Positions 3,901 through 50,156 of a stretch of DNA of 64,000 nucleotides are shown in pieces. The stretch's first letter is position 1. Each line of letters begins with the position of its first letter. This DNA is from a virus: the IMG/VR virus record IMGVR_UViG_3300025889_018307, positions 1 through 64,000 of that record. One strand, 5' to 3'. The position numbers and the translations under genes are program-made. The notes beneath the pieces are model-generated. The model saw nothing but the letters and a program-made list of their open reading frames with translations, was not told where the DNA came from and ran no database searches.

Positions 3901-3916
3901 ATATTTATAACAAAAA
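3901..3916 (+). promoter_or_regulatory. Late-promoter candidate
   Basis: ATATTTATAACAAAAA, 8 nt before the neck gene ATG. It is one of a recurring family (ATATTTATAAYAAAAT) found just upstream of virion and late genes in this window. Confidence 0.55.
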
Positions 3917-6990: not shown

Positions 6991-7006
6991 ATATTTATAA
7001 TAAAAT
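6991..7006 (+). promoter_or_regulatory. Late-promoter candidate (tail sheath)
   Basis: ATATTTATAATAAAAT, 15 nt upstream of the sheath ATG, identical to the copies before the tube and tape-measure genes. Confidence 0.6.
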
Positions 7007-8779: not shown

Positions 8780-8795
8780 ATATTTATAATAAAAT
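8780..8795 (+). promoter_or_regulatory. Late-promoter candidate (tail tube)
   Basis: ATATTTATAATAAAAT, 15 nt before the tube ATG. The sheath and tube leaders are nearly identical from here to their start codons, including the shared AACATAAAAA before ATG. Confidence 0.6.
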
Positions 8796-8810: not shown

Positions 8811-9299
8811 ATGGCAGTATTAGATCCCAACGAAATATTTTTCACCGCTTTTGAACCAAAAGTAGCTAATAGATTTGTATTGTATGTTGATGGTATACCA
8901 TCGTATATAATTAAAGGAGTTAGTGGAATGGGGTTCGCGCAAGATGAAATAGTATTAAATCATATAAACACTTATAGAAAAGTAAAAGGTAAATTAAGAT
9001 GGAATGATTTAACAATGGAATTATTTGATCCTATTACCCCTTCAGGAGCTCAAGCAGTAATGGAGTGGACAAGATTACACCATGAATCAGTTACTGGTAG
9101 AGATGGTTATTCTGATTTCTATAAAAAAGATTTAACTATTGATGTATTAGGTCCTGTAGGTGATGTAGTATCAGAATGGATTATTAAAGGTGCATTTATT
9201 AAAGATGCTGCATTTGGTGACATGAATTGGGATGATGACACCACTGTAATGAATATTTCATTAACAATAGGAATGGATTACTGCGTATTAAATTTCTAA
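8811..9299 (+). CDS. 19: Tail tube protein, gp19-like
   Basis: 162 residues, close to T4 gp19 (163). Typical tube features: PKVANRFVLYVDGIPSYIIK (first strands), HINTYRKVKGKLRWNDLTM, and a C-terminal block ending in a hydrophobic strand. The protein polymerises into hexameric rings forming the inner tube. It follows the sheath gene, has its own late-promoter candidate, and is closed by a strong intrinsic terminator at 9325-9350. Confidence 0.92.
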   Translation: MAVLDPNEIFFTAFEPKVANRFVLYVDGIPSYIIKGVSGMGFAQDEIVLNHINTYRKVKGKLRWNDLTMELFDPITPSGAQAVMEWTRLHHESVTGRDGYSDFYKKDLTIDVLGPVGDVVSEWIIKGAFIKDAAFGDMNWDDDTTVMNISLTIGMDYCVLNF

Positions 9300-9324
9300 A
9301 AGAAAATTTATATATTTTACATTT

Positions 9325-9350
9325 AAGCTTGGCTTCGGTCAAGCTTTTTT
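9325..9350 (+). terminator. Rho-independent terminator with UUCG tetraloop
   Basis: AAGCTTGGC, TTCG, GTCAAGCTT: a 9-bp stem (one G-T pair) closed by C(UUCG)G and followed directly by TTTT. It ends the sheath/tube transcripts. Confidence 0.9.
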
Positions 9351-9359
9351 GTATTATGT

Positions 9360-9375
9360 ATATGTATAATAAAAC
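9360..9375 (+). promoter_or_regulatory. Late-promoter candidate variant
   Basis: ATATGTATAATAAAAC, one or two mismatches from the late consensus. It lies just after the terminator and 24 nt before the next ATG. Confidence 0.45.
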
Positions 9376-9399
9376 ACAAGTTATTAACAAATAAAAATT

Positions 9400-10128
9400 A
9401 TGAGCGAAGAAAAATTCCAATTCCCCACAGAATTTGTTGATTTACCATCAGAAGGTAAAATTTATCCTAAAGATCATCCATTATCATCTGGAAGAGTAGA
9501 AATGAAATATATGACTGCTAAAGAAGAAGATATTTTAACTAACCAGAATTATATAGAAAAAGGAATTGTATTAGATAGATTAATAGAAGCTCTTACTATG
9601 AATAAATTTGATATTAAAGATATTCATCCTGGAGATAAAAATGCAATTTTTATATCTGCTAGAATATTAGGTTATGGTTCAGAATATAAATTTGAATATG
9701 CTGGAAAGGAATATACAATTGATTTAACAAAAGTTAAAAATAAACCATTTGATATTAAATCTTTAACAGATGAAGGTTATGGTACTTTTGAAATGCCTTC
9801 AAATGGAACTATAGTAAAATATAAATATTTAACTGAAAAAGATGTTGATAATATTACTCAAGAAGTATTAGGGATTTCTAAAATAAGTAAAGGAGCAGCT
9901 CCTGAAATTACTACAAAATTAAAACATCAAATTGTTTCGGTTAATGGGGATAGTAATAAATCTGAAATTCGTAAATATGTTGATACTTTTCTCTTAGCTC
10001 GTGATTCTAGAGCATTAAGAAATCATATTAGAGACACAGCTCCTGATGTCGATTTAAATTATGTAACTGATGATGGAACTACAATTTCAATTCCTATTAC
10101 TATAAATTTTTTCTGGCCCGATCTTTAA
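9400..10128 (+). CDS. 26: Tail assembly chaperone / baseplate hub assembly protein, gp26-like
   Basis: 242 residues. The block FVDLPSEGKIYPKDHPLSSG, then MKYMTAKEEDILTNQNYI, is characteristic of a T4-like family usually annotated as gp26 baseplate hub protein. The C-terminus (ISIPITINFFWPDL) is also conserved in the relatives I recall. Its position between the tube and tape measure, followed by a small overlapping frame, equals the G/GT tail-chaperone pair of other long-tailed phages. A slippery sequence 13 nt before the stop would send part of the ribosomes into the -1 frame, making a fusion of about 335 residues ending at 10406. Confidence 0.75.
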   Translation: MSEEKFQFPTEFVDLPSEGKIYPKDHPLSSGRVEMKYMTAKEEDILTNQNYIEKGIVLDRLIEALTMNKFDIKDIHPGDKNAIFISARILGYGSEYKFEYAGKEYTIDLTKVKNKPFDIKSLTDEGYGTFEMPSNGTIVKYKYLTEKDVDNITQEVLGISKISKGAAPEITTKLKHQIVSVNGDSNKSEIRKYVDTFLLARDSRALRNHIRDTAPDVDLNYVTDDGTTISIPITINFFWPDL

Positions 10129-10150
10129 ATGATTTCCCAAAGTATCGGGT
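10104..10150 (+). promoter_or_regulatory. Candidate programmed -1 ribosomal frameshift signal
   Basis: In the zero frame the run reads ATA AAT TTT TTC. A AAT TTT (10104-10110) fits the X XXY YYZ slippery rule. Six nt later a stem forms between CCCGAT (10117-10122) and ATCGGG (10144-10149), with an extra outer G-T pair. The zero-frame stop is 10126-10128. The -1 frame then stays open to 10406. Confidence 0.7.
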
Positions 10151-10406
10151 AAAAGTATTTCATGAAATACACGAAATAGTTTTCCATGGTGGTGGAGGTT
10201 ACGATTTCCATACTGTATATAATATGCCTCTTTGGTTACGTAGATTAACTTTTAATAAAATGAAAGAATTTTACGATGCTAGAGAAAAATCTCAAAACCC
10301 AAAAGAAGCAGGTGAAATTGATATGGCAAATCCGGATAAATCCCAACTTCCAACAAAAAGAACAGTATCTCCACCAAGTTATGTAGCTAAAAGATTAAAG
10401 AAATAG
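10110..10406 (+). CDS. Frameshift extension of the tail assembly chaperone (gp51 / GT-like)
   Basis: This -1 frame has no ATG before 10224, yet the sequence ahead of it looks coding: DFPKYRVKVFHEIHEIVFHG, then GGGYDFHTVYNMPLWLRRL and a basic tail. Small proteins of this look follow gp26-like genes in T4-like phages I recall. The likely product is a fusion made by -1 slippage near 10104-10113, adding about 98 residues. Alternatives are initiation at ATG 10224 (60 residues, losing the upstream part) or at a non-standard codon. The tape measure gene follows after 31 nt. Confidence 0.7.
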   Translation, partial: FLARSLNDFPKYRVKVFHEIHEIVFHGGGGYDFHTVYNMPLWLRRLTFNKMKEFYDAREKSQNPKEAGEIDMANPDKSQLPTKRTVSPPSYVAKRLKK

Positions 10407-10415
10407 TAGTTTTTA

Positions 10416-10431
10416 ATATTTATAATAAAAT
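10416..10431 (+). promoter_or_regulatory. Late-promoter candidate (tape measure)
   Basis: ATATTTATAATAAAAT, 6 nt before the tape measure ATG. Any transcript starting here would have almost no leader. Confidence 0.5.
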
Positions 10432-10437
10432 TGCTAT

Positions 10438-12702
10438 ATGGCTGGACTTGAAGGTTTAGGAAAAGATGACTTAAAAAGAGTACTTGATATTAGGGCTGCG
10501 GTTGCAGACGTAAAATCTGAAATAGCATCAGCAAATAAACAATTTAAAAAATTAGGAATAAATGCTGGGGATGTTAATAGTGAAATTTCTAAAATTACAG
10601 CAGCAACTAAAGGATTTGCTGATCTACAAGATGAAGCAGCAAAATCAGCAAAAGCAACAGCAGAAGCTATTAAAGGTGAAGCTAAACAATTAGCTATAGT
10701 AAGAACTCTTAATATTCAAATTAATGCTTTAACAAAAAAATCATTAACAGCTAATGAAACACAGTCAAAATTATTCCAAGCTCAGGCTGAAAGGTTATCA
10801 TCTGTAAGAGATAGTGCTCAAGATTTAGCAAATGAATTTGGAAAAATAGCAGAATCATCCTCTACATTAGATAGGAAAACAATGTGGTTTACTGCTTTTT
10901 CTGACTTTACAAAAGACATACCAGGTTTAAGAGTACTTTCAGGACCCTTCGAAGCTGCAGCTAAAGCTTCAAGAGAAACTGTAATAAATAATGCTAAAGC
11001 TTCAGATATAAAAGAAAGATTAAGTAAATTAACTACTGAAGAGCTAAAAACAGGTAAAGGACTTACAAGAGAAAGATTAAAATCTCTTAATTTAGAAGAT
11101 ATAACCCAAGGAAAATCAGGTGCTGCAGCACGTAATCTATTATCAAGTGCTAAAAAGCAAGCAAAAATCCAATCTTCGGGTATAGCTGGGATGAAAGCAG
11201 GATTTAAAGGATTAAAAGGAATAATTGGAAAAGCTTTTGCTCCTATAGCAATTATAACAACTTTTGTAAAAGCTATTCAGCTTATATTTGGAGCAATGAA
11301 AAAAGCATCAGAACAAACAGCTAAATTTTCAAATAATTTATTAGTTAGTAGGCAAGCTGCTGAAGAGCTTAGAGATGCTACTTATGAAACAGTTGCAGGA
11401 TTTAATTTAGCTTCAACAGCAGCAGGTGGTGTTGCAATAACCCAGGAAGGGTTATTAAAAACAATGGATGCTATTAATAAAAAATTAGGTTTCCAAGTAA
11501 ATATATTACAAGATTTTGGGGGAGAAATGAAAGCAAATGTAGCAGAAGCTACAATGATGTCTGAAAAATTTGGTTTAAGTGCTGATGCTTCTGCAAAATT
11601 ATTTTTAGAATCAGTTAAAACTGGTAAACCCCTTAAAGAAATGACTAAAGAGTATTTTGGTCAAGCAGGATTTTTAAGTGCACAGGAGGGACTAACAGCT
11701 GATGTAGTAGGTAATTTAGAAGAAGCAACAAAAGTATCAGGAAATTTAAGAGCTAATTTTAAAGGTAGTTCATTTGCAATTGCACAAGGTATATTTAATG
11801 CAAAAAGATTAGGTTTTGAACTAGCTCAAATGGAAGGAATATCTAGTAATTTATTAAACTTTGAAAGTTCTATAGCATCAGAAATGGAAGCTGAATTACT
11901 TACAGGTAAACAGTTAAATCTAGAAAAAGCAAGAGAAGCAGCTTTAGCAGGTAAAACTGGGGTTCTAATGGATGAAATATCAAAACAAGTAGGAACCCAA
12001 CAAGATTTTCTAAAAATGAATGTTATTCAAAGACAAGCTTTAGCTAAAGCTGTTGGGTTAGAAGCTGATGAATTAGCTGATATGTTTGATAAAAGAGCTA
12101 AAAATGATGCATTAGCAAAGGAAAATTTAAAAGTTCAAAATAGACTTAAAAAAGAAGGAATTAAGCTACAATATGATGAAAATGGTGCTATAATTAATGG
12201 GTTACAAGAAATTAGATTAGCTGCTGAAGCAGCAGGAAAATCTGAAGAAGAAATAAGAGAAATTCTAGGTGAACAAGTTTATTTAAGAAAATCAGAACAA
12301 TCAGCAACAGAAAAATTCAATAAATCATTAGCTAGGGCAAAAGATATATTTGCTTCTTTTGTAGAAGGTGGTTCTTTAGATAAGTTAGCAAACTTTGTAG
12401 AAAGTTTTGTTTCTAATCCTTTAGCGACTTTAATTAGTGGACCATCTACACCAACAGCATCTACAGTTACAACAACAGGAGGCACAGCATCAGATTTTAT
12501 TTCAAGACCAGGCCAACCAATTCAAAAATTTAGAAAAGATGATGTTATAGTTGGTGGAACTAGTTTAGGAGGAGGTAATAATGGAGAAGTTACGGCATTA
12601 TTAAAAGAATTAATAGTAGCAGTTAAAGAAGGTGGTGATGTGTTTATTGATGGAAATAAAGTAGGTAAATCATTAGCATTAGCAACCTCTAATATGGGGT
12701 AA
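10438..12702 (+). CDS. Tape measure protein
   Basis: 754 residues. The first 160 are helical and coiled-coil-like. A hydrophobic segment at about residues 270-290 (IIGKAFAPIAIITTFVKAIQ) is the membrane-prone stretch usual in tape measure proteins. The second half is a long Ala/Glu/Lys-rich helix (including SNLLNFESSIASEMEAELL and MNVIQRQALAKAVGLEADEL) followed by a Thr/Ser-rich linker and a short C-terminal domain. It sits directly after the candidate frameshift pair, the standard location. In T4 the role is taken by gp29. It should set tail length and be ejected ahead of the DNA. Confidence 0.8.
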   Translation: MAGLEGLGKDDLKRVLDIRAAVADVKSEIASANKQFKKLGINAGDVNSEISKITAATKGFADLQDEAAKSAKATAEAIKGEAKQLAIVRTLNIQINALTKKSLTANETQSKLFQAQAERLSSVRDSAQDLANEFGKIAESSSTLDRKTMWFTAFSDFTKDIPGLRVLSGPFEAAAKASRETVINNAKASDIKERLSKLTTEELKTGKGLTRERLKSLNLEDITQGKSGAAARNLLSSAKKQAKIQSSGIAGMKAGFKGLKGIIGKAFAPIAIITTFVKAIQLIFGAMKKASEQTAKFSNNLLVSRQAAEELRDATYETVAGFNLASTAAGGVAITQEGLLKTMDAINKKLGFQVNILQDFGGEMKANVAEATMMSEKFGLSADASAKLFLESVKTGKPLKEMTKEYFGQAGFLSAQEGLTADVVGNLEEATKVSGNLRANFKGSSFAIAQGIFNAKRLGFELAQMEGISSNLLNFESSIASEMEAELLTGKQLNLEKAREAALAGKTGVLMDEISKQVGTQQDFLKMNVIQRQALAKAVGLEADELADMFDKRAKNDALAKENLKVQNRLKKEGIKLQYDENGAIINGLQEIRLAAEAAGKSEEEIREILGEQVYLRKSEQSATEKFNKSLARAKDIFASFVEGGSLDKLANFVESFVSNPLATLISGPSTPTASTVTTTGGTASDFISRPGQPIQKFRKDDVIVGGTSLGGGNNGEVTALLKELIVAVKEGGDVFIDGNKVGKSLALATSNMG

Positions 12703-15204: not shown

Positions 15205-18200
15205 ATGGGCAATATTATAGGTGATCCATTTGATGAATTTGTAAAAAAACAAGTTGAAACAAGACAAACAGCCTTAGGCCAAACTACAAATATATCTGCT
15301 GATAATTTAAAATATTATACAGTAAAAACTCCATGGTTAAGATTAGCAAGTTCAGTTAACTTAACAAGAGAAGAAGAAGGAGATAATAGTGTTTTAGATA
15401 GATTAGTTAAAGCAGGTGTACCTCTAGAATCTATACAAAATGTAAACTTAGCTAAAAATTTTATACTTCAGGGTGGTTCACTTTCACTAGAAGAAACTGT
15501 AGATGATGAAGGAAAAATAACATCTTCAACAGTAAAACTTCATAAAGGTTTAAATTATAATAATGAATTATTTAATGGAGCCTATGGTTGGGGTGGGGTA
15601 AGTGAAAGAGGATACGTCCCTATGCCTGGAATTGAGTCAGCTCAATCTACTTATTATAATAATGGAGCTTTAAGCAAAGCAACAATTAATATAAAATGTT
15701 ATAGTAAGGCTCAATTTCAATTACTAGACGCTTTATATTTAAGACCAGGATATACCCTTTTATTAGAATTCGGTTGGTCTACTTTTTTAGATAATAATGG
15801 AGATTTGCAAACATTTGATGGGTTTAAATCTACCCCTTTAGATTTTTTATTAAACCCAGGAACTTTTCCAGGTCCAAAAAATCAATTCCAAATGTTAAAT
15901 CTTATATCACAAGAAAGAGCAAAATATTCTGGTAACTATGAAGCTATTTATGGTAAGATAACTAATTTTAAATGGTCTTTTAGTACAGACGGTTCTTATA
16001 GTTGTGAAGTATCTTTAATAGGTATGGGTAATATAATAGAATCCTTAAAATTAAATGTAACAGATCCTAAAAAAGATGACCAATCTAGCAGTAGTGATGT
16101 AAAAGCTAACACTACTTTTCAACAATATATAAATGATTATGTTGGGGAAACTATAGGGGCATATATTGAAATTGCAGAAAGCGGTGAACAACCTTTAAAA
16201 GCAGGCAATATACCCCAATCATATAGAAATAAATTTCTTAAAACATTTAAAAACCCTTCAGGAGGATATGATCTTAATTTAACAGCTACTAAACAAGAAA
16301 TTTTAGATTATTTACGTCCTAAATATAATGAATTAGTAGAAGCAGAAAAAGAAGTAACAATACAAAACAATAATAATGATCCCTTAATAGCTTATAAAGA
16401 TGATACTAAATTAAATAAAACATTTTATAATATTTCCCAAAATATACAAGGTAAATATAAAGGGGAAGCTGGGGGGTTATTTTTAACTCAAAAAGGTATA
16501 ACAAATGGAGCTTTTGTATTAGATAATACCTATACAGGAAAGAAAAATTTTGGGGGAAGTGAAAAAGTTGAAAAAAGTGTTTATATAAAGTTTGCTACTT
16601 TATTAAAAATTATTGAAGAAAATTGTAATTTATTTTCTACAAAAGGAGAAGGAGGACGCACCCCCTTAGTAAAATTTGATTTTAATTATGCTAATATGGG
16701 AAATGATCAAAATTTTATGTTTATTTGTCCCCCAAATATTTCAACAAACCCCGATAAATGTCTAGTAGCTTATAATAAAATGACAATTAAAGGAATAGTT
16801 AAATATGATAATGATATCGTTACTAATTCAGAATTAAATAAAACATTAAATGCTAAACAAGATTTTTTAGTAGATAACAATCCTTATGTAGGGAGATTAG
16901 GTAATGTTTTAATTAATTTAAGATTTGCTTCTGAAGCAATTGCAACCTCACCTAAAGATCAAGATGGAGCTATATCTGTTTTAACATATGTAAAAACTAT
17001 ACTAAGAGGAATAAATGAATCTATGGGTAATTTAAATAGTTTTTTTGTTACTTTAGATGAAAATGAAGGTGTTATAAAAATTTATGATGAAACCCCAAAA
17101 CCAAATCTTGTTGAAGCAATTCCTGAAAAATTTACAAAAATTAATATTTTTGGAGTAAAACAAGATCAAGGCTCATTTATTACAAATATAGGACTAGATG
17201 CAGAAATTCCACAAAATTTTGCTACAATGATAGCAATAGGGGCTCAAGCATCTGGAAATAACCTTATGGGTAATTCTGTTTCATTTTCGAATTATAATAA
17301 AGGTTTAGTTGACAGAATTATACCCGAAAAAATAGATTATGATACTAGTGAAAAGAAAGAAGATGAACCTAGTCCCTTAGAAAAAGCAAAAACTATAAAA
17401 GTAGAAAAATTATTTAAATCTAAGGATGATGGGAATTTACCTTTAAAAGAAATGTATAAATTTGGAGGCACAAAAGAGGGGGGTAATTATGATAAATACA
17501 ACTTTTCACCAGAAGTATCAAATGATCTTAGTGAAAATTATACTACTTATATTAAATTAATACATGGAATATTAGCAGAATCAAATACAGTTCCCTCACC
17601 TTTTTTCTTACCTTTTAATTTAAATTTAGAAATGGAAGGATTATCAGGAATAAAATTATTTGAAAAATTCCAAATAACTGATGATATTTTACCCCCATCT
17701 TATGAAAAAGATAGTGTTGATATTATAGTAAAAGCTATTAATCATAACATTGATGTTCAAAAATGGTCAACTACAATTAATACTCAATCTGTACCTAGAT
17801 TTGAACCTTTAATAATTGAAGAAGCAGAACCAGAAACGAATCAACCATCAGAAAAACAAGAACAATTAGCTGCTGCTGCTGAAGAAGCACCACCAACAGA
17901 TCCTAATGAAAATCAAATTACAAGATTAAGACTAACTAGATTAGTTGATAATGGTTATCAAACTTTAGGTTTAATGGAAGTGTTAGATGAAAATGGTAAT
18001 ATCTTATATGCACTACCAATATGTGAATTGCCATGGAGTGATAATAAAAATAATGAAAGTTGTATACCTACAGGAACTTACACAATATCTTCAAGAACTT
18101 CACCTAAATATGGAAACCATTTTATTATAGCTAATCAAAGTAATAATAGAAATGAAATATTAGCAGCAGGAGGACCTATTGATGGATTTAATACCACAAA

Positions 18201-18633
18201 TAGAAAATGGGTATTAATTCATGAAGCCCCAGCAGCACAAGGAAATACAAAACCTTGGTTACTAGGTTGCATGGCCCCAGGATTTAAGTTTAATACTAAT
18301 CAAAGAGATCAATTTGGTAATCCTAGAGGAACAGGACCTCAATATGGCGGTAAATCATCTCCATCACATTTAGAGTCAATCCAGGCAAAAAATAAATTAG
18401 TAGGAACATTATTTAATACTGGTAAAGATCCAATGTTTAAATTAGAAATTAAAGCATTAGGTGGTGTCAATAAACCTATAGAAAGTAATTTTTATTCATT
18501 TGGTGTAAGTAATGAAATTAGAAAAATAGAAAACATAACAGGAGAAAAATACACATACGAAGGTGGTGGAGGTGCTAATGCACCACTAGGAACTGATAAT
18601 CCTTTTGCTCCAAATTTAAATATTACTTTTTAA
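15205..18633 (+). CDS. Large baseplate hub protein with C-terminal DUF5675 / L,D-transpeptidase-like domain
   Basis: 1142 residues. The first 850 are a structural part, including ALYLRPGYTLLLEFGWSTFL and FKWSFSTDGSYSCEVSLIGM, which look like the gp27/gpD-type hub. After a Glu/Ala/Pro linker (about 870-900) comes a separate domain at about 905-1085: RLTRL, then SCIPTGTYTISSRTSPKYG, a His in VLIHE (His1006) and a Cys in LLGCM (Cys1022). This is the layout of DUF5675, compared with the His...Cys chemistry of L,D-transpeptidase (YkuD) folds. T4 carries lysozyme at the same place in its hub (gp5), so a peptidoglycan-active role at the tail tip is inferred. A glycine-rich end overlaps the next gene by 1 nt. 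Confidence 0.75.
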   Translation: MGNIIGDPFDEFVKKQVETRQTALGQTTNISADNLKYYTVKTPWLRLASSVNLTREEEGDNSVLDRLVKAGVPLESIQNVNLAKNFILQGGSLSLEETVDDEGKITSSTVKLHKGLNYNNELFNGAYGWGGVSERGYVPMPGIESAQSTYYNNGALSKATINIKCYSKAQFQLLDALYLRPGYTLLLEFGWSTFLDNNGDLQTFDGFKSTPLDFLLNPGTFPGPKNQFQMLNLISQERAKYSGNYEAIYGKITNFKWSFSTDGSYSCEVSLIGMGNIIESLKLNVTDPKKDDQSSSSDVKANTTFQQYINDYVGETIGAYIEIAESGEQPLKAGNIPQSYRNKFLKTFKNPSGGYDLNLTATKQEILDYLRPKYNELVEAEKEVTIQNNNNDPLIAYKDDTKLNKTFYNISQNIQGKYKGEAGGLFLTQKGITNGAFVLDNTYTGKKNFGGSEKVEKSVYIKFATLLKIIEENCNLFSTKGEGGRTPLVKFDFNYANMGNDQNFMFICPPNISTNPDKCLVAYNKMTIKGIVKYDNDIVTNSELNKTLNAKQDFLVDNNPYVGRLGNVLINLRFASEAIATSPKDQDGAISVLTYVKTILRGINESMGNLNSFFVTLDENEGVIKIYDETPKPNLVEAIPEKFTKINIFGVKQDQGSFITNIGLDAEIPQNFATMIAIGAQASGNNLMGNSVSFSNYNKGLVDRIIPEKIDYDTSEKKEDEPSPLEKAKTIKVEKLFKSKDDGNLPLKEMYKFGGTKEGGNYDKYNFSPEVSNDLSENYTTYIKLIHGILAESNTVPSPFFLPFNLNLEMEGLSGIKLFEKFQITDDILPPSYEKDSVDIIVKAINHNIDVQKWSTTINTQSVPRFEPLIIEEAEPETNQPSEKQEQLAAAAEEAPPTDPNENQITRLRLTRLVDNGYQTLGLMEVLDENGNILYALPICELPWSDNKNNESCIPTGTYTISSRTSPKYGNHFIIANQSNNRNEILAAGGPIDGFNTTNRKWVLIHEAPAAQGNTKPWLLGCMAPGFKFNTNQRDQFGNPRGTGPQYGGKSSPSHLESIQAKNKLVGTLFNTGKDPMFKLEIKALGGVNKPIESNFYSFGVSNEIRKIENITGEKYTYEGGGGANAPLGTDNPFAPNLNITF

Positions 18634-30912: not shown

Positions 30913-33906
30913 ATGAAAAAACTACAGTTATTATTACTAACACTTTTAATACCTTTTTTAGGTTACACACAGGGTTCTTGGATTCACATACAATTAATGA
31001 CGGACAATTATCCGTCTGAAACAAGCTGGAATATTACACCTCCTGGTGGTTCACCCATTATTATAGAAAATGGTAGCAATATGCTACCTAATACAATGTA
31101 TGACACTATTGTTCAACTTAGTGGTACAATAATTGCTAGTATATATGATTCTTTTGGTGATGGTTTAGGTTCATCTCAATGGGGTGGAACTGATGGTTGG
31201 TTTATGATTAGTAATTCATGTCAAGATACTTTAATGTATGTTGCAGGAGATTTTGGAGACAGTTTAATACAGACTCTTACTGTTGCTCCCTGCGCCCCAC
31301 CAACAGTTGGTTGTACAGACCCATCTGCATTGAATTATGATTCAACCGCTTATATTTCAGACCCTAGCTCATGTATATTTTCCCCATGTCAGGGTCTTTT
31401 AACTTCTACAGCATCACAAAACTGTTTACCTGGTGGCCAAACACTTGTTATATTTAATTGGACTTTAGATAGTAATACAAATTGTACACCTGTAAAATTT
31501 TGGTATTCAAACGAAAATGGTGTTGGTCCTTTCCAATATGGACTTAATCCTAACGCATTAGATTTTGCAGTTTATGCTGGTAATGGTCAAATGCCACCTA
31601 ATTGGTCAGTAGAACACTATGGTCAAGTTGAATTTTTAGATGGTACTTTATCTGATACTATATTTTATACACCTACTGCTTGTATAGCTGGTTGTACTGA
31701 TCCTACACAAGTATCATACAATCCTTGGGCTACTTATGATGATGGTAGTTGTGCGGGGACAAATTGTGACACAGCAACACAATATCAAATAACAATGGAA
31801 ATTACATTGGACAATTGGCCTGGTGAAACATCATGGATAATGAATAGTTTAGGTGTAGTAGATGAAGCAACCCCGGGAACATATGATTTTAATGATATAG
31901 GTCAAACATATACTTATACTTTTTGTATAGATCAAAACGCAGGATTTGAATTAATTGTAAACGATACTTACGGTGATGGTATGGCTGGTTCTACTTCTGG
32001 TGGTTCTATGGATGGTATGATTGTTATTTATGACTGTAATGGTGATACTATTTGGTATATGGATAATCCTGGATTTGGAAATATATTATATTCAGGACAA
32101 CAATTTGGAACACCTTGTCCTACTATACCCCCAGTTTTAGGATGTACAGATGATGACTATGTAGAATTTAATCCATTAGCTAATGTAGATGATAGTTCAT
32201 GTGTTACACTACACACTTATGGTTGTATAGATTCAACTGCATTTAATTACGATCCAAATGCAACTATAATGGATTTAATACCTGACTGTAATTACTTGTT
32301 AGAAATATTTGATGCAGCAGGAGATGGTTGGGGTAATTCTTATATTGGTGTTTATCAAAATGGTCTTAACCTTGGAACATATACAATGGGTCCTGGTAAT
32401 TATGTTAATTCTTGGAATATTATTTTAGACCCAGGAATTCCAGTAGAAGTATTTTATTTTGAAGTAGGTGGACCACAACAACCACCTCAAGAAGTTCAAT
32501 TCCAAACTTGGCATAATTCATTTAAACTTACAAACGCTGATGGTTTTGTATTAATACATGAAGGTCAAAATCCTTTTGCTAATAATGGTCAAGGAGCACT
32601 ACAAAGCTTTGAAAGTCCATTTTGGACAAAATATGTAGATATACCTTTCTGTGGTAATACTTGCATACCAGTAGTTTTAGGTTGTATGGATACAAATTCA
32701 TTTAATTATGATTCATTAGCAAATGTAGATGATGGTTCATGTATGCCATTCTTATATGGATGTACTAATGTTTTTGCAATAAATTATGATCCACTAGCTA
32801 ATGTTGATGATGGTTCATGCATACCATTTATAAATGGATGTACTGACTCTACAGCAGACAATTATAATTCTCTTGCTAATACTGATGATGGTTCTTGTTA
32901 CTACATTGGTTGTATGGATATAGCTGCTTGTAATTTTGATTCAACAGCGACAGTTAATAATGGATGTCAATATCCAGTACAATATTATGATTGTAATAAT
33001 GTGTGTTTACTGGATTCAGATGGTGATGGTATTTGTGATGAATTAGAAATACCGGGTTGTACTAATCCTATTGCTTTAAACTTTGATATTACAGCAACAG
33101 ACGATGATGGAACATGTATTTTACCAATTTATGGTTGTACTGATCCTTTAGCTTTCAACTACGATCCTTTAGCTAACACAGACAACGGATCTTGCGTACC
33201 TGTAGTATATGGTTGTACTGATCCAACTCAATTTAATTATAATCCACTAGCTAATACAGACAACGGATCTTGTATACCATTTATTTACGGGTGTACTGAT
33301 GCAGCTGCTTTCAATTACGATCCTTTAGCTAATACAAATGACAATAGTTGTTGTTTAATTGCTGGTTGTACTGATCCTTTATCAGTTAACTATAACGAAT
33401 TTGCTTGTTTTGATGATAATTCATGTATAACAGCAGTTCCTGGTTGTACTGATGTTTCAGCTTACAATTACAACCCAGCAGCTAACGTTTCAGATTCAAC
33501 AGCATGTTTATATGATGCTGGTTGTTATGGAGGACCTGGAATACCATATTGGTTAAATGATGGATGTTATGCTTGGGTAATTAGTGTAGATGATTATTGT
33601 TGTACTAACGATTGGGATCCTACATGCCAATCAATGTATGATTATTGTCAATTAGGTTGGCCAACTAATATTCCTGATGTTTCGGCTTTAGGTATAGTTG
33701 TTTATCCTAACCCAACAAGAGGATTAATTCATATAGAAACTAGATTAGAAATAGAAGTTGAAATTTATGATATGACTGGTAAATTATTAATTAAATCTAA
33801 TAATGCTTCTAATAGAATTGATATAAATGATTTCCCTTCAGGTATTTATAATATGACAATAATACATGAAGATAAAAGATATAGTAAAAGAATAATTAAA
33901 AATTAA
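30913..33906 (+). CDS. Secreted multi-repeat surface protein with T9SS type A sorting domain
   Basis: 997 residues. Signal peptide at 1-19 (MKKLQLLLLTLLIPFLGYT). The body carries 14 copies of a cysteine-bearing repeat of the form GCTDPxAxNYDPLANxDDGSC plus two or three jelly-roll-like segments with Asp-rich turns (SFGDGLGSS, DTYGDGMAGS, DAAGDGWGNS) and a calcium-type LDSDGDGICDELE. The last 70 residues match the type IX secretion C-terminal sorting domain: VVYPNPTRGLIHIE, VEIYDMTGKLL, INDFPSGIYNMTII and a KRIIKN end. In Bacteroidetes such proteins cross the outer membrane by T9SS and are surface-attached or released. Finding this on a phage genome is unusual and implies use of the host's secretion machine. 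Confidence 0.92.
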   Translation: MKKLQLLLLTLLIPFLGYTQGSWIHIQLMTDNYPSETSWNITPPGGSPIIIENGSNMLPNTMYDTIVQLSGTIIASIYDSFGDGLGSSQWGGTDGWFMISNSCQDTLMYVAGDFGDSLIQTLTVAPCAPPTVGCTDPSALNYDSTAYISDPSSCIFSPCQGLLTSTASQNCLPGGQTLVIFNWTLDSNTNCTPVKFWYSNENGVGPFQYGLNPNALDFAVYAGNGQMPPNWSVEHYGQVEFLDGTLSDTIFYTPTACIAGCTDPTQVSYNPWATYDDGSCAGTNCDTATQYQITMEITLDNWPGETSWIMNSLGVVDEATPGTYDFNDIGQTYTYTFCIDQNAGFELIVNDTYGDGMAGSTSGGSMDGMIVIYDCNGDTIWYMDNPGFGNILYSGQQFGTPCPTIPPVLGCTDDDYVEFNPLANVDDSSCVTLHTYGCIDSTAFNYDPNATIMDLIPDCNYLLEIFDAAGDGWGNSYIGVYQNGLNLGTYTMGPGNYVNSWNIILDPGIPVEVFYFEVGGPQQPPQEVQFQTWHNSFKLTNADGFVLIHEGQNPFANNGQGALQSFESPFWTKYVDIPFCGNTCIPVVLGCMDTNSFNYDSLANVDDGSCMPFLYGCTNVFAINYDPLANVDDGSCIPFINGCTDSTADNYNSLANTDDGSCYYIGCMDIAACNFDSTATVNNGCQYPVQYYDCNNVCLLDSDGDGICDELEIPGCTNPIALNFDITATDDDGTCILPIYGCTDPLAFNYDPLANTDNGSCVPVVYGCTDPTQFNYNPLANTDNGSCIPFIYGCTDAAAFNYDPLANTNDNSCCLIAGCTDPLSVNYNEFACFDDNSCITAVPGCTDVSAYNYNPAANVSDSTACLYDAGCYGGPGIPYWLNDGCYAWVISVDDYCCTNDWDPTCQSMYDYCQLGWPTNIPDVSALGIVVYPNPTRGLIHIETRLEIEVEIYDMTGKLLIKSNNASNRIDINDFPSGIYNMTIIHEDKRYSKRIIKN
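31309..33512 (+). repeat. Fourteen GCTDP...DDGSC protein repeats
   Basis: Units of about 24 residues, each opening with GCxD/GCTN and closing with a Cys. Units 1-4 are interspersed with longer domains. From unit 5 onward they run nearly in tandem, with one break at the calcium-type segment. The most similar neighbours (such as the 33131-33340 stretch) also share nucleotide blocks, pointing to recent duplication. Confidence 0.85.
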
Positions 33907-44606: not shown

Positions 44607-45384
44607 TCACGAACTTCCTATAAGTATGCTTTCTAGAAGTTATGATATTAATGATTATGAATATTGTCTTCCTCATTTATTAGATCAAAATGAAGTTTAT
44701 AAAAATCATTTTTATAAAGCTAAAGAAGATGGTAGATATATTATAATGGATAATTCACTCCATGAATTAGGTGAAGCATATGATTCTGATAGATTAATGT
44801 ATTGGATTAATGAATTAGAACCAAATGAATTTGTTGTACCTGATGTTTGGCAAGATAAAACAGCAACATTAGTTAATGCTAAAAGGTGGCAATCTATAAA
44901 ACTACCAAAAAGTGTAACTAAAGTAGCAGTAGTTCAAGCCCAAAATTATGAAGAGGCATTTGAATGTTACAATATATTAAAAATGCAAGGTTATAAAAAA
45001 ATAGCATTTAGTTATGGGGCTGAATGGTATGCTGAAGCATTTCCTCATCCTAATCCTTTAGTTGGAAAAATGATGGGTCGTATAATGATGATATCAAGAA
45101 TGTATAAATCAGGATTGATTGAAAAATCAGATAGGGTTCATTTATTAGGATGTGCATTACCACAAGAATTTGCTTATTATAAAGATTTTCCTTTTATTGA
45201 ATCAATAGATACATCAAATCCTATTATTCATGGATTAGAAGGAGTAAAATATAGTACAAATGGGTTATTTACTAAATCATCAACTAAAATTGATACTATT
45301 GGTTTAACACCTATGACCCAAGAAATATTATATAATATTAACCACAATTTAACACAATTTAAAAAATTTAAAGAATGCAATTAA
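44593..45384 (+). CDS. dpdA: DpdA-like DNA-guanine transglycosylase (TGT superfamily)
   Basis: 263 residues. Plan of the tRNA-guanine transglycosylase TIM barrel: IIMDNSLHELGE (Asp53, equivalent to the DSGGFQ substrate Asp), VPDVWQDK, VAVVQAQNYEE, HLLGCALPQEF and ESIDTSNP (Asp206, equivalent to the nucleophile). It lacks the TGT zinc site and is shorter, like the DpdA group of phages, which swaps guanine in DNA for a 7-deazaguanine base. QueC, QueD, QueE and FolE are encoded in the next 5 kb. Overlaps queC by 10 nt. Confidence 0.75.
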   Translation: MVKTSHELPISMLSRSYDINDYEYCLPHLLDQNEVYKNHFYKAKEDGRYIIMDNSLHELGEAYDSDRLMYWINELEPNEFVVPDVWQDKTATLVNAKRWQSIKLPKSVTKVAVVQAQNYEEAFECYNILKMQGYKKIAFSYGAEWYAEAFPHPNPLVGKMMGRIMMISRMYKSGLIEKSDRVHLLGCALPQEFAYYKDFPFIESIDTSNPIIHGLEGVKYSTNGLFTKSSTKIDTIGLTPMTQEILYNINHNLTQFKKFKECN

Positions 45385-46229
45385 AATTAGATTTACAAAA
45401 ACAAGCAGTATTGTCTCTATCAGGTGGAATGGATTCAAGTACAGTATTATTACACTTATTAGCTAATGATTATGAAGTTACAGCAGTTGCTTTTGACTAT
45501 GGTCAAAAACATAAAGTAGAATTAGAACGAGCTCAAGAATTAGTAGATTACATTAATTCTAGTGATGCTTATCAAGGACATAATGTAAATTTTAGAGTAA
45601 TTAAGTTAGATGGTTTAGTTGATTTACTAAATTCAAATCTAGTTGAAGGTGGAGAAGATGTCCCAGAAGGACACTATGAAGAAGAAAACATGAAGGAAAC
45701 AGTTGTACCTAATAGGAACAAAATGTTTTCATCAATTATACAAGCTGTGGCATTATCCATTGCTAATGAAAAAGATTGTCCTGTAAAAATTGCTATGGGT
45801 ATTCATGCTGGGGATCATGCAATTTATCCTGATTGTAGGCAAGAATTTAGAGATGCTGATTATGAAGCATTTAAACAAGGTAATTGGGATGCTGATAAAA
45901 TAACATATTATACACCTTATTTAAATGGGGATAAGTTTGATATATTAAAAGATGGTGAAGTATGTTGTGAAAAATTAGGATTAGATTTTGATGAAGTTTA
46001 TAAAAGAACTAATACATCATATAAACCTATTAAACATTATTACAGACCAGAAACTAATGCTTGGAAATGGTACTCAGATTATAAGTCAGCATCATCTGTA
46101 GAAAGAATTGAAGCTTTTATTAAATTAGGAAGACCTGATCCTGTAGAGTATGCTAATGAAAAAGGACCTGTTAAATATGATATAGCTAAATCCCATGTTG
46201 AAGAATTATTAACACAACACTCAGCTTAA
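45375..46229 (+). CDS. queC: QueC-like preQ0 synthase (PP-loop), zinc cysteines absent
   Basis: 284 residues. ATP-pyrophosphatase loop SGGMDSS (16-22), AVAFDYGQKHKVEL, VVPNRNKMF and MGIHAGDHAIYPDCR are QueC features; QueC makes 7-cyano-7-deazaguanine (preQ0). In typical QueC a C-terminal Cys cluster (SCY...CGxCxxC..R) binds zinc. Here the matching region reads TNTSYKP (212-218) and YKSASSVERIEAF (236-248), with every Cys replaced. Either zinc is not needed or the fold is stabilised otherwise. Confidence 0.85.
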   Translation: MQLKLDLQKQAVLSLSGGMDSSTVLLHLLANDYEVTAVAFDYGQKHKVELERAQELVDYINSSDAYQGHNVNFRVIKLDGLVDLLNSNLVEGGEDVPEGHYEEENMKETVVPNRNKMFSSIIQAVALSIANEKDCPVKIAMGIHAGDHAIYPDCRQEFRDADYEAFKQGNWDADKITYYTPYLNGDKFDILKDGEVCCEKLGLDFDEVYKRTNTSYKPIKHYYRPETNAWKWYSDYKSASSVERIEAFIKLGRPDPVEYANEKGPVKYDIAKSHVEELLTQHSA

Positions 46230-46236
46230 TATAAAT

Positions 46237-46308
46237 GTCCTTTGGTGTAATTGGCAGCACGTCTGGTTTTGGTCCAGGAGATTGAGGTTCGAACCCTCGA
46301 GGGACAAC
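46237..46308 (+). tRNA. tRNA-Gln (anticodon UUG)
   Basis: 72-nt cloverleaf: acceptor TGTCCTT/AGGGACA (one G-T pair), D arm GTG...CAC, anticodon stem TCTGG/CCAGG around loop TTTTGGT giving UUG, T stem TGAGG/CCTCG with loop TTCGAAC. No CCA is encoded. It reads CAA, a codon heavily used in this phage, notably in the collagen-like fibre. Confidence 0.93.
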
Positions 46309-46321
46309 AAAATAAAAAATT

Positions 46322-46528
46322 ATGAAAGAAAAAATGAAGAAAGAAAGATGGGATTATCCCGACACTAAAATAGATAAAATCCCAGATCCAAAACTACACC
46401 AACAAATTAGTTTTGTAAAATCAGGTGTTAGAATAGTAGGTTATGCAGCTATTCCATTTAGCTTGTTTTGGGCAGTTACTTTTCTTATCTTAAGTGAAGT
46501 AATAGGTATAATAGAAGAATTAGTATAA
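46322..46528 (+). CDS. Small membrane protein
   Basis: 68 residues: a basic, charged N-terminal 35 residues, then a single hydrophobic segment (about 40-62, VGYAAIPFSLFWAVTFLIL) and an acidic end. Lies between tRNA-Gln and a thioredoxin gene in the deazaguanine block. Function unknown. Confidence 0.55.
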   Translation: MKEKMKKERWDYPDTKIDKIPDPKLHQQISFVKSGVRIVGYAAIPFSLFWAVTFLILSEVIGIIEELV

Positions 46529-46543
46529 ATTAAAACAAAAATT

Positions 46544-46801
46544 ATGAATAAAGGAATTTTATTTTTTAATGCTCCATGGTGCCAACCTTGTCAAGTATTA
46601 AAACCCGTAATAGAACAATTAGGAAGAGATGGTATTAATGTGAAAAGTATCAATACAGAGTATGATGCTATGAACTCAGAAAGATATCAAGTTAAAAGTA
46701 TCCCAACATTAATTCTAACAGATTTAAATGGAAATGAAATTAAAAGAACTCAAGCTGGTGGGTGGACTAAAGAGCAAGTATTAAATTGGTTTAATAGTTA
46801 A
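46544..46801 (+). CDS. Thioredoxin-like protein
   Basis: 85 residues, with active site PWCQPC (Cys13, Cys16), the cis-Pro in SIPTLIL, and a compact thioredoxin/glutaredoxin length similar to T4 NrdC. A likely electron donor for the phage ribonucleotide reductase, whose large subunit ends in a CXXC pair. It is 2 nt before queD. Confidence 0.85.
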   Translation: MNKGILFFNAPWCQPCQVLKPVIEQLGRDGINVKSINTEYDAMNSERYQVKSIPTLILTDLNGNEIKRTQAGGWTKEQVLNWFNS

Positions 46802-46803
46802 GT

Positions 46804-47292
46804 ATGTTTACAAGCACAAAGGTTTTTGATGGTTTTAGTACTGTATTTCGTCAATGGAAAGCAGAAAATACACATTGTAGATTTTTACATGGGTATGGTG
46901 TTTCATTTAAAGTATGGTTTGAAGGTGAATTAGATCATAGAAATTGGGTTTGGGATTTTGGTGGAATGAAAAGAGCTAAAACTAAAATTGATGGTAAATC
47001 ACCTAAAGAATGGATGGATTATATGTTTGATCATACTGTAATTATTGCTGAAGATGATCCTTTATTACCTGAATTTGAAATGTTAGATAATCTCCCTAAA
47101 TTTGGTGGTACCCAAAATAAAGGAGCTATACAATTAAGGATAATCCCAGCTACTGGTGCAGAAAAATTTGCTGAATATATTTATAATAAGCTTAATGATT
47201 TTGTAAAAACTGAAACTAATAATAGGGTTAAAGTAAAACAAGTAGAGTTTAGAGAACACGGAAAAAATTCAGCAATTTACTCAGAAAAATAA
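46804..47292 (+). CDS. queD: QueD-like 6-carboxytetrahydropterin synthase
   Basis: 162 residues. FSTVFRQWKAENTHCRFLHG with catalytic Cys25, VWDFGGMK and MFDHTVIIAEDDP match the phage QueD / 6-pyruvoyl-tetrahydropterin synthase family. Two usual zinc ligands appear changed: the early FxxxH His is not visible and HGH reads HGY (29-31). QueD converts dihydroneopterin triphosphate, the FolE product, to carboxytetrahydropterin. Confidence 0.85.
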   Translation: MFTSTKVFDGFSTVFRQWKAENTHCRFLHGYGVSFKVWFEGELDHRNWVWDFGGMKRAKTKIDGKSPKEWMDYMFDHTVIIAEDDPLLPEFEMLDNLPKFGGTQNKGAIQLRIIPATGAEKFAEYIYNKLNDFVKTETNNRVKVKQVEFREHGKNSAIYSEK

Positions 47293-47334
47293 GTTATTAA
47301 TAGTGAATGAAAAACCACTTTAAAAAATTTACAC

Positions 47335-48108
47335 ATGCGAAAAAGAATAGAGGATTATAACAAAACACTACCCGTATTAGAAGTTTATAGAGCAGTACAA
47401 TCTGAAGGTAGTAGATTTGGGAGACCAACAATTGTTATTAGAACAACAGGTTGTACACATAGATGTTATTTTGGAGAAGGAGGATGGTGTGACAGTTGGT
47501 ATACATCTATCCACCCAGAAAAGGGAATATTTACATTCCAAGACATAATAGATATTTATGATCAGAATCCACAAGTAAAAGAAATGATGTTGACTGGTGG
47601 TTCACCAACAATGCATCCAGCATTAGTAAATGAGTTAACACACTTTGCAAATGAAAGAGATATTATTATTACTATTGAAACTGAAGGATCAGCTTTTGTT
47701 GAAACCGATTATCCTATTGGTCTTATTTCTCTTAGCCCTAAGTTTAGTAATTCCGTTCCTGTTGTTGGGGCTGTTACTCCAGCTGGGAGAGTGGTTGACG
47801 AAAAATTCATAAAAATACATAATAGAAAAAGACTTAATACTACAGCTATTAAGCAAATGATGGAATTCCATACAGATTATCATTATAAACCAGTTTGGGA
47901 TGGTACACCTAAAAATTTAGAAGAAATTGAAGCTTACAGAGTAGAGCTTAATATTCCTAAAAATAAAACATGGGTAATGCCTGCTGGTGATACTAGAGAA
48001 CAATTAATTAAAATGTATCCTCTTGTATTTGAAATGGTAGCTGAACATGGATATAATATGACAGGGAGAGATCACATAATTGCGTATAACACAGAAAGAG
48101 GAGTATAA
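47335..48108 (+). CDS. queE: QueE-like 7-carboxy-7-deazaguanine synthase (radical SAM)
   Basis: 257 residues. VYRAVQSEGSRFGRPTIVIR, then the iron-sulfur motif GCTHRCYFGEGGWCDSW: Cys40, Cys44 and Cys52, that is CX3CX7C rather than the usual CX3CX2C. MMLTGGSPTMHP and ETEGSAF match the SAM-binding and substrate regions. The enzyme makes CDG, the substrate of QueC. The last base is shared with the next gene's ATG (TAATG). Confidence 0.88.
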   Translation: MRKRIEDYNKTLPVLEVYRAVQSEGSRFGRPTIVIRTTGCTHRCYFGEGGWCDSWYTSIHPEKGIFTFQDIIDIYDQNPQVKEMMLTGGSPTMHPALVNELTHFANERDIIITIETEGSAFVETDYPIGLISLSPKFSNSVPVVGAVTPAGRVVDEKFIKIHNRKRLNTTAIKQMMEFHTDYHYKPVWDGTPKNLEEIEAYRVELNIPKNKTWVMPAGDTREQLIKMYPLVFEMVAEHGYNMTGRDHIIAYNTERGV

Positions 48109-48500
48109 TGGAAAAATATATTTACAGAGCAAAATTAGACAGAGTAGTAGATGGCGATACAGTAGATGCCTTAATAGATGTTGGTTTTGATATTTGGTTT
48201 AAAAAACGAATTCGTTTCGTAGGAGTAGACACTTGGGAATCAAGAACAAGAGATCTTGAAGAAAAGAAAAAAGGTAAATTAGCAGCAGAACGTACAAGAC
48301 AACTATTAGAAGAAGTATCATCTAAACCAGGATATTTTAGAATTAAATCACATGGTTTAGGAAAATATGGTAGAGTATTAGGTGAATTATTTGTAATGGA
48401 TAAAGATGGTAAGCAGTGGAATATTAATGAAACTTTAATTACTGAGGGTCATGCCTATGTTTATGATGGGGGTAAAAAAAAATTATTTAAAAATGAATAA
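48108..48500 (+). CDS. Staphylococcal-nuclease-like (SNase/TNase) protein
   Basis: 130 residues. DRVVDGDTVDALIDVGF, RIRFVGVDTWESRTRD and GKYGRVLGELF are the conserved strands of thermonuclease, carrying the Asp, Arg, Glu and Arg active-site positions; INETLITEGHAYVY closes the fold. No signal peptide, so it acts inside the cell, perhaps degrading host nucleic acid that lacks the phage base modification. That last point is inference from its position in the modification block. Confidence 0.8.
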   Translation: MEKYIYRAKLDRVVDGDTVDALIDVGFDIWFKKRIRFVGVDTWESRTRDLEEKKKGKLAAERTRQLLEEVSSKPGYFRIKSHGLGKYGRVLGELFVMDKDGKQWNINETLITEGHAYVYDGGKKKLFKNE

Positions 48501-48885
48501 TAAAATCTATGTAGGGTGGAATGAAATTGAAGAATTAGTTGACAATTTATGTTATCAAATTCGTCAAAAACACCCAGAAATTAAATATGTACATGGTTTA
48601 AAAAGGGGAGGATTAATTCCTGCTATTATGGTTTCTCATACTTTAGGGTTAGAGTATGTAGATACACCCCAACATTATGATAATTGTTTGATTGTTGATG
48701 ACATATGTGATAGTGGAGTAACTTTAAAAAAATGGAATGACTATGTTACTGCTGTTTTACATTATAAACCTCATACATCATGTGTAGAACCTACTATACA
48801 TGCTTTTGCACATGAAGGAGATGAATGGATAATATATCCTTGGGAGAGAGATGATAGCGAAACTATTCAAGATTATTTAAAATAG
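48493..48885 (+). CDS. Phosphoribosyltransferase-family protein
   Basis: 130 residues from ATG 48493 (a longer frame to 48451 is unlikely, being fully inside the nuclease gene). YVHGLKRGGLIPAIMVSH and the PRPP-binding motif NCLIVDDICDSGVTL are typical of purine-type phosphoribosyltransferases. Located between QueE and FolE, it may act in guanine or deazaguanine salvage; the substrate is not known. Starts within the ATGAATAA overlap. Confidence 0.75.
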   Translation: MNNKIYVGWNEIEELVDNLCYQIRQKHPEIKYVHGLKRGGLIPAIMVSHTLGLEYVDTPQHYDNCLIVDDICDSGVTLKKWNDYVTAVLHYKPHTSCVEPTIHAFAHEGDEWIIYPWERDDSETIQDYLK

Positions 48886-48915
48886 TTTGGCTTTTTAAGT
48901 TAAATTTATTATATT
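48886..48915 (+). promoter_or_regulatory. Host-type promoter candidate for folE
   Basis: TTTGG with TTG at 48887-48889, 20 nt spacer, TATATT at 48910-48915, 21 nt before the folE ATG. Confidence 0.6.
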
Positions 48916-48936
48916 ACAACAAATAAAGAGTTATAA

Positions 48937-49626
48937 ATGGCAGAAAATAAGAAAAAATACGATATAGAAGTAGTACAAGAAGGATTTGCTAATGGTGTTG
49001 CACCTGGTTTTCCTTTAAATGATCAAGAAAAATCAGATATGATTGAAGAAGCAACTGAAGCTTATGGTAAGTTTTTAGATGCATTAAAATGTGATTGGAG
49101 AAATGATCCAAATTCAAATGATACCCCAAGACGTGTAGCTAAAGCTTATGTACATGATTTATGGGCTGGTAGATACACTGAAATGACCCCTATTACTTCC
49201 TTTCCCTCGGATGGTTATGATGGAATCGTTATTGAAAGAAACATCCCTCTAACCTCAATGTGTTCACACCACCACCAAACAATAGGTGGGGTGGTTCATA
49301 TTGGTTATATTACATCAGAAAAAGGAGCAGTTGTAGGTTTAAGTAAATTAAATAGAATTGTAGAACACTTTGGTAGAAGAGGTGCTATACAAGAACAATT
49401 AACATCTGCAATACATAATGCAGTAAACAAAATTTGTGAGGATAACTTAGGTGTTATTATTACAATAGTAGCAACACATAATTGTGTAAGCTGCCGAGGT
49501 GTTAAACATAAAGGAGCTGCAATGGTTACAACAAAAGCTTCAGGTGTGTTTAGACACAATGGAAATGACGCAAGACAAGAGTTTTTTAACTCATTAAAAA
49601 TTAATAACGGAGGACATCAAATTTAA
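48937..49626 (+). CDS. folE: GTP cyclohydrolase I (FolE)
   Basis: 229 residues. Zinc and active-site motifs: SMCSHHHQTIGG, GLSKLNRIVEHFGRR and ATHNCVSCRGVKHKGA. It converts GTP to dihydroneopterin triphosphate, the first step toward both folate and preQ0; with QueD, QueE and QueC the route to preQ0 is complete in this window. It has its own promoter, suggesting separate timing from queC-queE. Confidence 0.93.
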   Translation: MAENKKKYDIEVVQEGFANGVAPGFPLNDQEKSDMIEEATEAYGKFLDALKCDWRNDPNSNDTPRRVAKAYVHDLWAGRYTEMTPITSFPSDGYDGIVIERNIPLTSMCSHHHQTIGGVVHIGYITSEKGAVVGLSKLNRIVEHFGRRGAIQEQLTSAIHNAVNKICEDNLGVIITIVATHNCVSCRGVKHKGAAMVTTKASGVFRHNGNDARQEFFNSLKINNGGHQI

Positions 49627-49631
49627 TAGTT

Positions 49632-50156
49632 ATGAGTGATAAAAAAGAAAAATTAGGAAACAAATATTGGAATGTACCTTTTGTAAATGAGGTAGAAGAA
49701 TTCAATGAAACATTTGGTAAACCAAATAATTATGAACCAACAATCCCTGAAAAAAAAGAATGGATGTTTGTTTATGATTTTATCCAAGAAGAACTAGCTG
49801 AATATAAAGAAGCTTGTGAGAAAGGTGATATTGTAGAAGTTTTAGATGCATTGTGTGATATTGCTTATGTTTCATTAGGTAATGGAACTATGTTACATGG
49901 TTTAAAAGGTCATATTTGGAAAGCATACCAAGAAGTTCAGGCATCAAATATGTCAAAATCTTGTGTTGATGAAGCTGAAGCTGAATTGACTGTAACTCAA
50001 CGAGCTAAAGAACAAGGTGAAGATTGTCATTGGGAAAAAATAGGTAATCGTTATGTTGTTTATAGAACCCGTGATAGAAAAGTAATGAAATCAGTAAATT
50101 ACTTCAAACCAGACTTACAACAATTTTTCTCAAAATCAGATTTAGATAATGTATAA
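49632..50156 (+). CDS. mazG: MazG-like NTP pyrophosphatase
   Basis: 174 residues. ETFGKP, then DFIQEELAEYKEACEKGDIV and EVLDALCDIAYV carry the EExxE...ExxD metal-binding helices of the all-alpha NTP-pyrophosphatase superfamily, and HGLKGHIWKAYQEVQASNMS is the extended phage-type form. A C-terminal domain (WEKIGNRYVVYRTRDRKVMK) follows. Such enzymes hydrolyse (d)NTPs, possibly clearing unmodified or host nucleotides, or ppGpp-like signals. Overlaps the polymerase gene by 8 nt. Confidence 0.8.
   Translation: MSDKKEKLGNKYWNVPFVNEVEEFNETFGKPNNYEPTIPEKKEWMFVYDFIQEELAEYKEACEKGDIVEVLDALCDIAYVSLGNGTMLHGLKGHIWKAYQEVQASNMSKSCVDEAEAELTVTQRAKEQGEDCHWEKIGNRYVVYRTRDRKVMKSVNYFKPDLQQFFSKSDLDNV

Follow-up and report, generated by a model that had tools for sequence, protein, structure and literature searches.

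A single start codon would serve two tail assembly chaperones (TACs) in the phage analysed here. In a 64,000-nucleotide (nt) stretch of DNA (the window), which is contained in an 84,310-base virus record, we find that the end of the open reading frame (ORF) at 9400–10128 is very probably best explained by a programmed -1 frameshift that makes a short and a long form of the tail chaperone. Most ribosomes are predicted to terminate at the TAA at 10126, giving a short chaperone of 242 amino acids (aa), and a minority would step back one base at A_AAU_UUU or at the overlapping U_UUU_UUC, with a hairpin 6 nt further 3′ assisting. The slipped ribosomes, for which we infer a modest rate, would continue in the -1 frame for a further 97 codons and yield a fusion protein of roughly 335 aa. 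By analogy with G and GT of phage lambda, the short form would coat the tape-measure protein and the extension would recruit tail-tube subunits. Among homologous junctions, the -1 clade to which the window belongs appears, from sequence comparison, to be a derived exception among relatives whose version of this extension lies in the +1 frame.

A chaperone gene in a T4-like tail module

The phage is T4-like, and its hosts are probably Bacteroidota. Its T4-like tail module spans about 7–19 kb of the window, in the order sheath (phrog_23), tube, ORF 9400–10128 and a 754-aa ORF; all features of the junction and its neighbours lie on the + strand. The upstream neighbour, at 8811–9299, is the tail tube protein gene, which matches phrog_4542 (E=8.9e-23) and, below the Pfam curated cut-off, Phage_T4_gp19 (E=7.8e-5). 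The downstream neighbour, at 10438–12702, is assigned as the tape-measure protein gene by its position, its 754-aa length and synteny with phage immuto, in which the corresponding gene is annotated "tail tape measure protein"; PHROG and Pfam searches gave it no family match of its own. With these assignments, the order of tube, chaperone, extension and tape measure that an earlier note on this DNA had claimed holds.

On sequence evidence, the product of ORF 9400–10128, the zero-frame protein, is a member of the T4 gp26/gp51 family and represents the short chaperone (TAC-N). It matches phrog_150 (E=4.1e-8), as do T4 gp26 (6.7e-71) and T4 gp51 (2.6e-84). Both T4 proteins also belong to PF12322, with gp51 carrying an additional C-terminal region, and the zero-frame protein fails to reach PF12322 in a Pfam search. 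Its AF2 model (pLDDT 88.5) has 51 matches in BFVD at E<=0.001, the best at E 1.4e-19, and several of these are named as T4-like baseplate hub assembly proteins or subunits. A Foldseek comparison of the model with the PDB returned HK97 gp13 (2ob9) at a level that is not significant (E 2.6, target TM 0.44, probability 0.20). Solved structures searched by sequence gave no match, and an Rfam scan of 9300–10600 found no family.

Several other features of the window were recorded. The string ATTTATAATAAAA recurs on the + strand shortly 5′ of late structural genes, at 6993–7005, 8782–8794 and 10418–10430, the last copy standing after the frameshift ORF and before the tape-measure gene, and variants occur at 3903, 6679, 9362, 12704, 28526 and 37486; with 9 matches against 3.7 expected, it is a candidate late promoter. 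The hub-region protein encoded at 15205–18633 (1142 aa) has a DUF5675 domain embedded at residues 910–1034 (E 1.8e-9), and positions 2–1000 hold long collagen-like GTQG/GTIG repeats, probably of a fibre, in an ORF that runs off the window start. A 997-aa Cys-rich repeat protein (30913–33906) ends in a C-terminal Por_Secre_tail (PF18962, E 2.8e-13), the sorting signal for type IX secretion in Bacteroidota, so that this phage gene seems to borrow the secretion system of its host. The family B DNA polymerase is split between ORFs 50149–51825 and 51822–52751, which overlap by four bases (ATGA); the first holds the exonuclease and part of the polymerase domain, the second the rest. By eye, 45375–49626 resembles a queuosine/deazapurine cluster (QueC-, QueD-, QueE- and FolE-like), which a tRNA-Gln gene at 46236–46308 adjoins.

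A slip site and an open -1 frame at the end of the gene

The 3′ end of the zero-frame ORF reads ATA AAT TTT TTC TGG CCC GAT CTT TAA, with the stop codon at 10126–10128. It contains the slippery heptamer A_AAT_TTT at 10104–10110 in the phase A|AAT|TTT and, overlapping it, T_TTT_TTC at 10107–10113; slippage at either would give one and the same fusion peptide, N-F-F-L-A-R. The 6-nt spacer TTCTGG (10111–10116) separates A_AAT_TTT from a stem with arms CCCGAT (10117–10122) and ATCGGG (10144–10149), whereas in the subclade of the window T_TTT_TTC would leave a spacer of only about 3 nt. The heptamer and its phase, the spacer, the stem and the placement of all these just before the zero-frame stop are thus as the earlier note had described them. 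A heptamer by itself is weak evidence, because X_XXY_YYZ heptamers are common in this AT-rich genome, with 190 in frame in the surveyed coding sequences (CDS).

Beyond the slip site, 97 open codons and a stop follow in the -1 frame (10113–10406); they begin LARSLNDFPKYRVKVFHEIHEIVFHGGGGYDFHTVYNMPLWLRRLTF and would encode the C-terminal portion of the long form (TAC-NC), including the conserved EIHEIVFHGGGGYDFHTVYNMPLWLRRLTF. As claimed earlier, this frame is protein-like and lacks an upstream ATG: no ATG, GTG or TTG precedes the conserved EIHEIVFHGGGGYDFHTVYN block in the window, and the first such codon, the ATG at 10224, comes after the block. Across the initial 62 codons of the extension, dN/dS is 0.06–0.6 at a dS of 0.2–0.7, and six residues (G26, G28, G29, Y36, P39 and R43) are invariant over 27 homologues of both directions. 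PHROG and Pfam searches with the extension returned nothing significant. A profile of the extension aligned by hhalign with the expected C-terminal part of T4 gp51 (213–245) at E 0.4, which is not significant, and its AF2 model is of low confidence (pLDDT 71), with three helices.

Most relatives reach the extension in the +1 frame

Protein-guided scans, two DNA-pattern scans and isolate genomes yielded 375 loci at which the gp26-like ORF is complete, 284 of them distinct. The DNA-pattern scans served only to find members and are excluded from base statistics, because the pattern fixes the bases concerned; we assigned RM378 (L133) to no class. Of the 284 distinct junctions, 240 place the C-terminal domain in the +1 frame and 20 in the -1 frame; in 24 the HMM did not detect it. 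All 20 of the -1 members have an open and homologous -1 frame. Among the +1 users are Flavobacterium phage immuto, Microcystis phage Mel-JY01, Bacillus phage SP-15, Streptococcus phage GXN1 and Listeria phage LIS04, and +1 is therefore widespread. The -1 direction proposed in the earlier note is thus right for the window and has to be corrected for the family, in which most sampled T4-like relatives reach the same extension in +1.

These junctions also bear on whether the frame break is real. T runs are error-prone on some sequencing platforms, and an assembly or sequencing error in the homopolymer could hide a single in-frame ORF; against this, the independent assemblies L001–L003 share identical junctions, lengths are consistent among the distinct junctions (20 of them -1, 240 of them +1), isolate genomes show the same split, and an in-frame fusion of the two parts occurs in none of the 375 loci. 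We consider such an error extremely unlikely.

Another possibility is that the extension is a separate small protein with an unusual start of its own or with translational coupling. It follows and overlaps the zero-frame ORF, and public records do annotate a small separate CDS at this place: those of immuto (L047 3851–3961) and Mel-JY01 (L048 3746–3982) list the extension as a separate small hypothetical protein. Possible weak start codons are also found in some relatives, with a TTG at the slip site in the L058 subclade and some ATG, GTG or TTG upstream in 61 of the 112 +1 members scanned. However, no such codon precedes the conserved block anywhere in the subclade of the window, in L158 or in L239, and the point at which the open region begins is not conserved whereas the slip site is. 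The position of the extension also matches that of the C-terminal part of T4 gp51, in which a gp26-like part and a C-terminal part form one chain (the C-terminal alignment being weak). We therefore regard a separate gene as very unlikely. Relatives with a start codon of their own for the downstream ORF and no slippery run were looked for, and the relatives showed instead two parts in different frames wherever both are present, with a T-run slip site in nearly all.

Slip sites differ with direction

The usual +1 site is C/G-TTT-TTT-TGG, and several +1 members read TTT CTT TGG. In nearly all +1 members YUU_U would occupy the P site; exceptions such as L049 (CTA) have TTT_C one codon earlier. A CUU followed by U can re-pair on UUU after a shift of one base forward, as happens at the prfB site. 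We considered a -2 reading of the +1 relatives and rejected it, since a P-site CTT has no way to re-pair after moving two bases back.

The -1 members have sites of two forms. Twelve, including the window, carry A_AAT_TTT followed by TTC, and the A before the Asn codon is kept in all 12 of the distinct -1 members in which AAT precedes the T run, compared with only 25 of 143 +1 members. The conservation of the slippery site across related phages that had been put forward as a check thus bears out the claim for AAT-type -1 relatives. The other eight read GGT TTT TTT TGG, which contains T_TTT_TTT. The more general T_TTT_TT[C/T] is present in 20 of 20 distinct -1 members; T_TTT_TTC also occurs in cyanophage-type +1 members, so the slip string alone does not set the direction.

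In the set free of pattern-found members, the T run is preceded by C or G in 190 of 206 +1 members and by T in 13 of 13 -1 members, against a background at third codon positions of 41% T, 43% A, 9% C and 7% G. The avoidance of T in +1 users (for example, L015 and L055) fits suppression of -1 slippage. A is likewise avoided before the T7 run of +1 members, despite an A+T share of about 84% at third positions.

A hairpin downstream of the -1 slip site

The stem-loop CCCGAT[CTTT]...[AAAG]TATCGGG at 10116–10150 encloses the zero-frame stop and is a likely -1 stimulator. The six-base-pair (bp) core is extended by CTTT/AAAG pairing and a G10116–U10150 pair, with a minimum free energy (MFE) of -11.7 kcal/mol. 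Compared with dinucleotide shuffles, 3 of 200 of which were equally stable, its z is -2.39; other -1 members gave -2.80 (L010), -2.03 (L013) and -2.13 (L058), and tested +1 relatives gave +0.57 to -0.56. The 6-bp core is invariant across the 10 members of the window subclade, and because it never varies, covariation cannot be shown for this stem. The Arg codon CGG occurs at the 3′ arm of the stem in 10 of 10 window-subclade members and at none of the 565 Arg codons among the 17,006 codons of surveyed window CDS; the other -1 members encode the same Arg with AGA, and most +1 members with AGA or AGG. This codon is the strongest hint in the sequence of selection on the RNA.

Sister -1 subclades employ different stems. 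The L058 subclade forms GGATCTCT AAA AGAGATCC, with G-U variants, and L158 and L239 share a third, different pairing. A hairpin stands at ribosomal spacing in 19 of the 20 distinct -1 members, 6 nt 3′ of the slip site in the A_AAT_TTT form and 5 nt 3′ in the T_TTT_TTT form. In the remaining one, L493 (GGT TTT TTT TGG CCG GAT), no stable downstream hairpin was found (MFE about -0.1 kcal/mol), and the hairpin may therefore be dispensable with U8.

These features also help to tell ribosomal slippage from slippage of RNA polymerase on the T run, which would yield a frame-altered fraction of the mRNA. Many members have six to eight consecutive T, and bacteria are known to show transcriptional slippage on homopolymers. 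The run in the window, however, is only six T long and is ended by C, and several +1 relatives break the run (TTT CTT TGG) yet keep ribosomal +1 pairing. Retention of the full A_AAT_TTT in AAT-type members and of a hairpin at ribosomal spacing likewise argues for the ribosome, and we judge polymerase slippage to be unlikely. The evidence of slip site, extension, conservation and gene order together supports the claim of the earlier note that this is a -1 frameshift equivalent to that of the G/GT tail chaperones.

A one-base change accounts for a probable switch of direction

FastTree groups the -1 members into one clade (0.918) when given 150 zero-frame proteins; with 281 zero-frame sequences, a single +1 sequence, L564, falls within the -1 group at weak support. 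IQ-TREE analysis of the fused proteins recovered the -1 members as monophyletic (UFboot 98) and nested in +1 users, with L564 as the sister of the -1 clade (UFboot 100). Measured from the slip site, starting at its first Phe codon, the I of IHEI lies 59 nt away in 20 of 20 -1 members, and either 58 nt (122) or 46 nt (88) away in 210 of 212 +1 members. Given 59 nt in the -1 members and 58 nt in the sister class, one extra base past the zero-frame stop explains the change of frame, and because that base lies after the stop, the short protein is unaltered.

We propose that the frameshift probably flipped from +1 to -1 once, by a net one-base insertion past the stop and a rebuilding of the slip site, possibly through a U8 intermediate, with hairpins arising separately by subclade. 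The ancestral state would have been +1 slippage at YUU_UGG reaching the same extension; in one ancestor, a net 1-nt insertion 3′ of the zero-frame stop would have put the extension into the -1 frame. The slip site would have come to match, with a T added before the T run and A_AAT_TTT or T_TTT_TTT formed. For the order of these changes, we infer that either the T addition or the one-base insertion came first, that the site was then rebuilt and that the hairpin was subsequently gained in most members. The U8 form GGU_UUU_UUU_UGG, present in eight -1 members, could slip either way and is a plausible intermediate. In the literature searched, we found no description of a change of direction between homologous TAC genes.

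Discussion

Tail-chaperone frameshifting is among the most conserved recoding events known. Frameshifts of -1, -2 and +1 in TAC genes of different phages are already known, and so is chaperone frameshifting in T4-like phages.

As in the window, lambda gpG/gpGT is a small ORF between the tail tube (shaft) and tape-measure genes, with a -1 slip near its end and a C-terminal extension that has no start of its own, and unequal amounts of the two products are expected (PMC5009743). The two systems differ in that they have no detectable sequence homology and use different heptamers; the tail in the present case is T4-like and contractile, and direction varies among close relatives of the window. T4 gp26 and gp51 were identified as T4-like TACs by Vladimirov et al. 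2022, as cited in PMC10885494 and PMC12846349. The former describes, on that authority, one short and one long TAC gene in T4-like phages instead of a frameshift; the latter, also citing Vladimirov et al. 2022, mentions that TAC-N genes of T4-like phages are known to contain poly-T slippery sequences. The short gp26 and the long gp51, with its extra C terminus, share phrog_150 with the window protein, but in T4 they are separate genes on opposite strands, whereas the window has one gene and a frameshift. The earlier note was right to call them separate genes in T4, where they are short and long paralogues of one family.

The TAC of phage Adele and the Vandenendeviridae resembles that of the window in its poly-T -1 slip at the TAC-N end (GTTTTT) and in an extension formerly annotated as separate or intergenic; unlike in the window family, -1 is reported throughout the group, with no +1/-1 split (PMC12846349). 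TAC frameshifts of +1 occur in the haloviruses HSTV-2 (PMC5009743) and the HF1 group, at TTT-CGC (PMC7230728), and one of -2 in phage Mu (PMC5009743). The UUU slip codon of the haloviruses resembles that of the +1 relatives of the window. Haloviruses and Mu are unrelated phages that differ in direction, whereas the window family has both directions at one homologous site.

For that site, the order of events on the tree, a one-base cause and matching changes of the slip site can be set out together. Many T4-like phages keep a frameshift form of gp26/gp51, the extension of which annotators miss. The family lets one ask what selection keeps, which may be the fusion and its ratio to the short form and not the mechanism, and whether a U8 site is ambidextrous.
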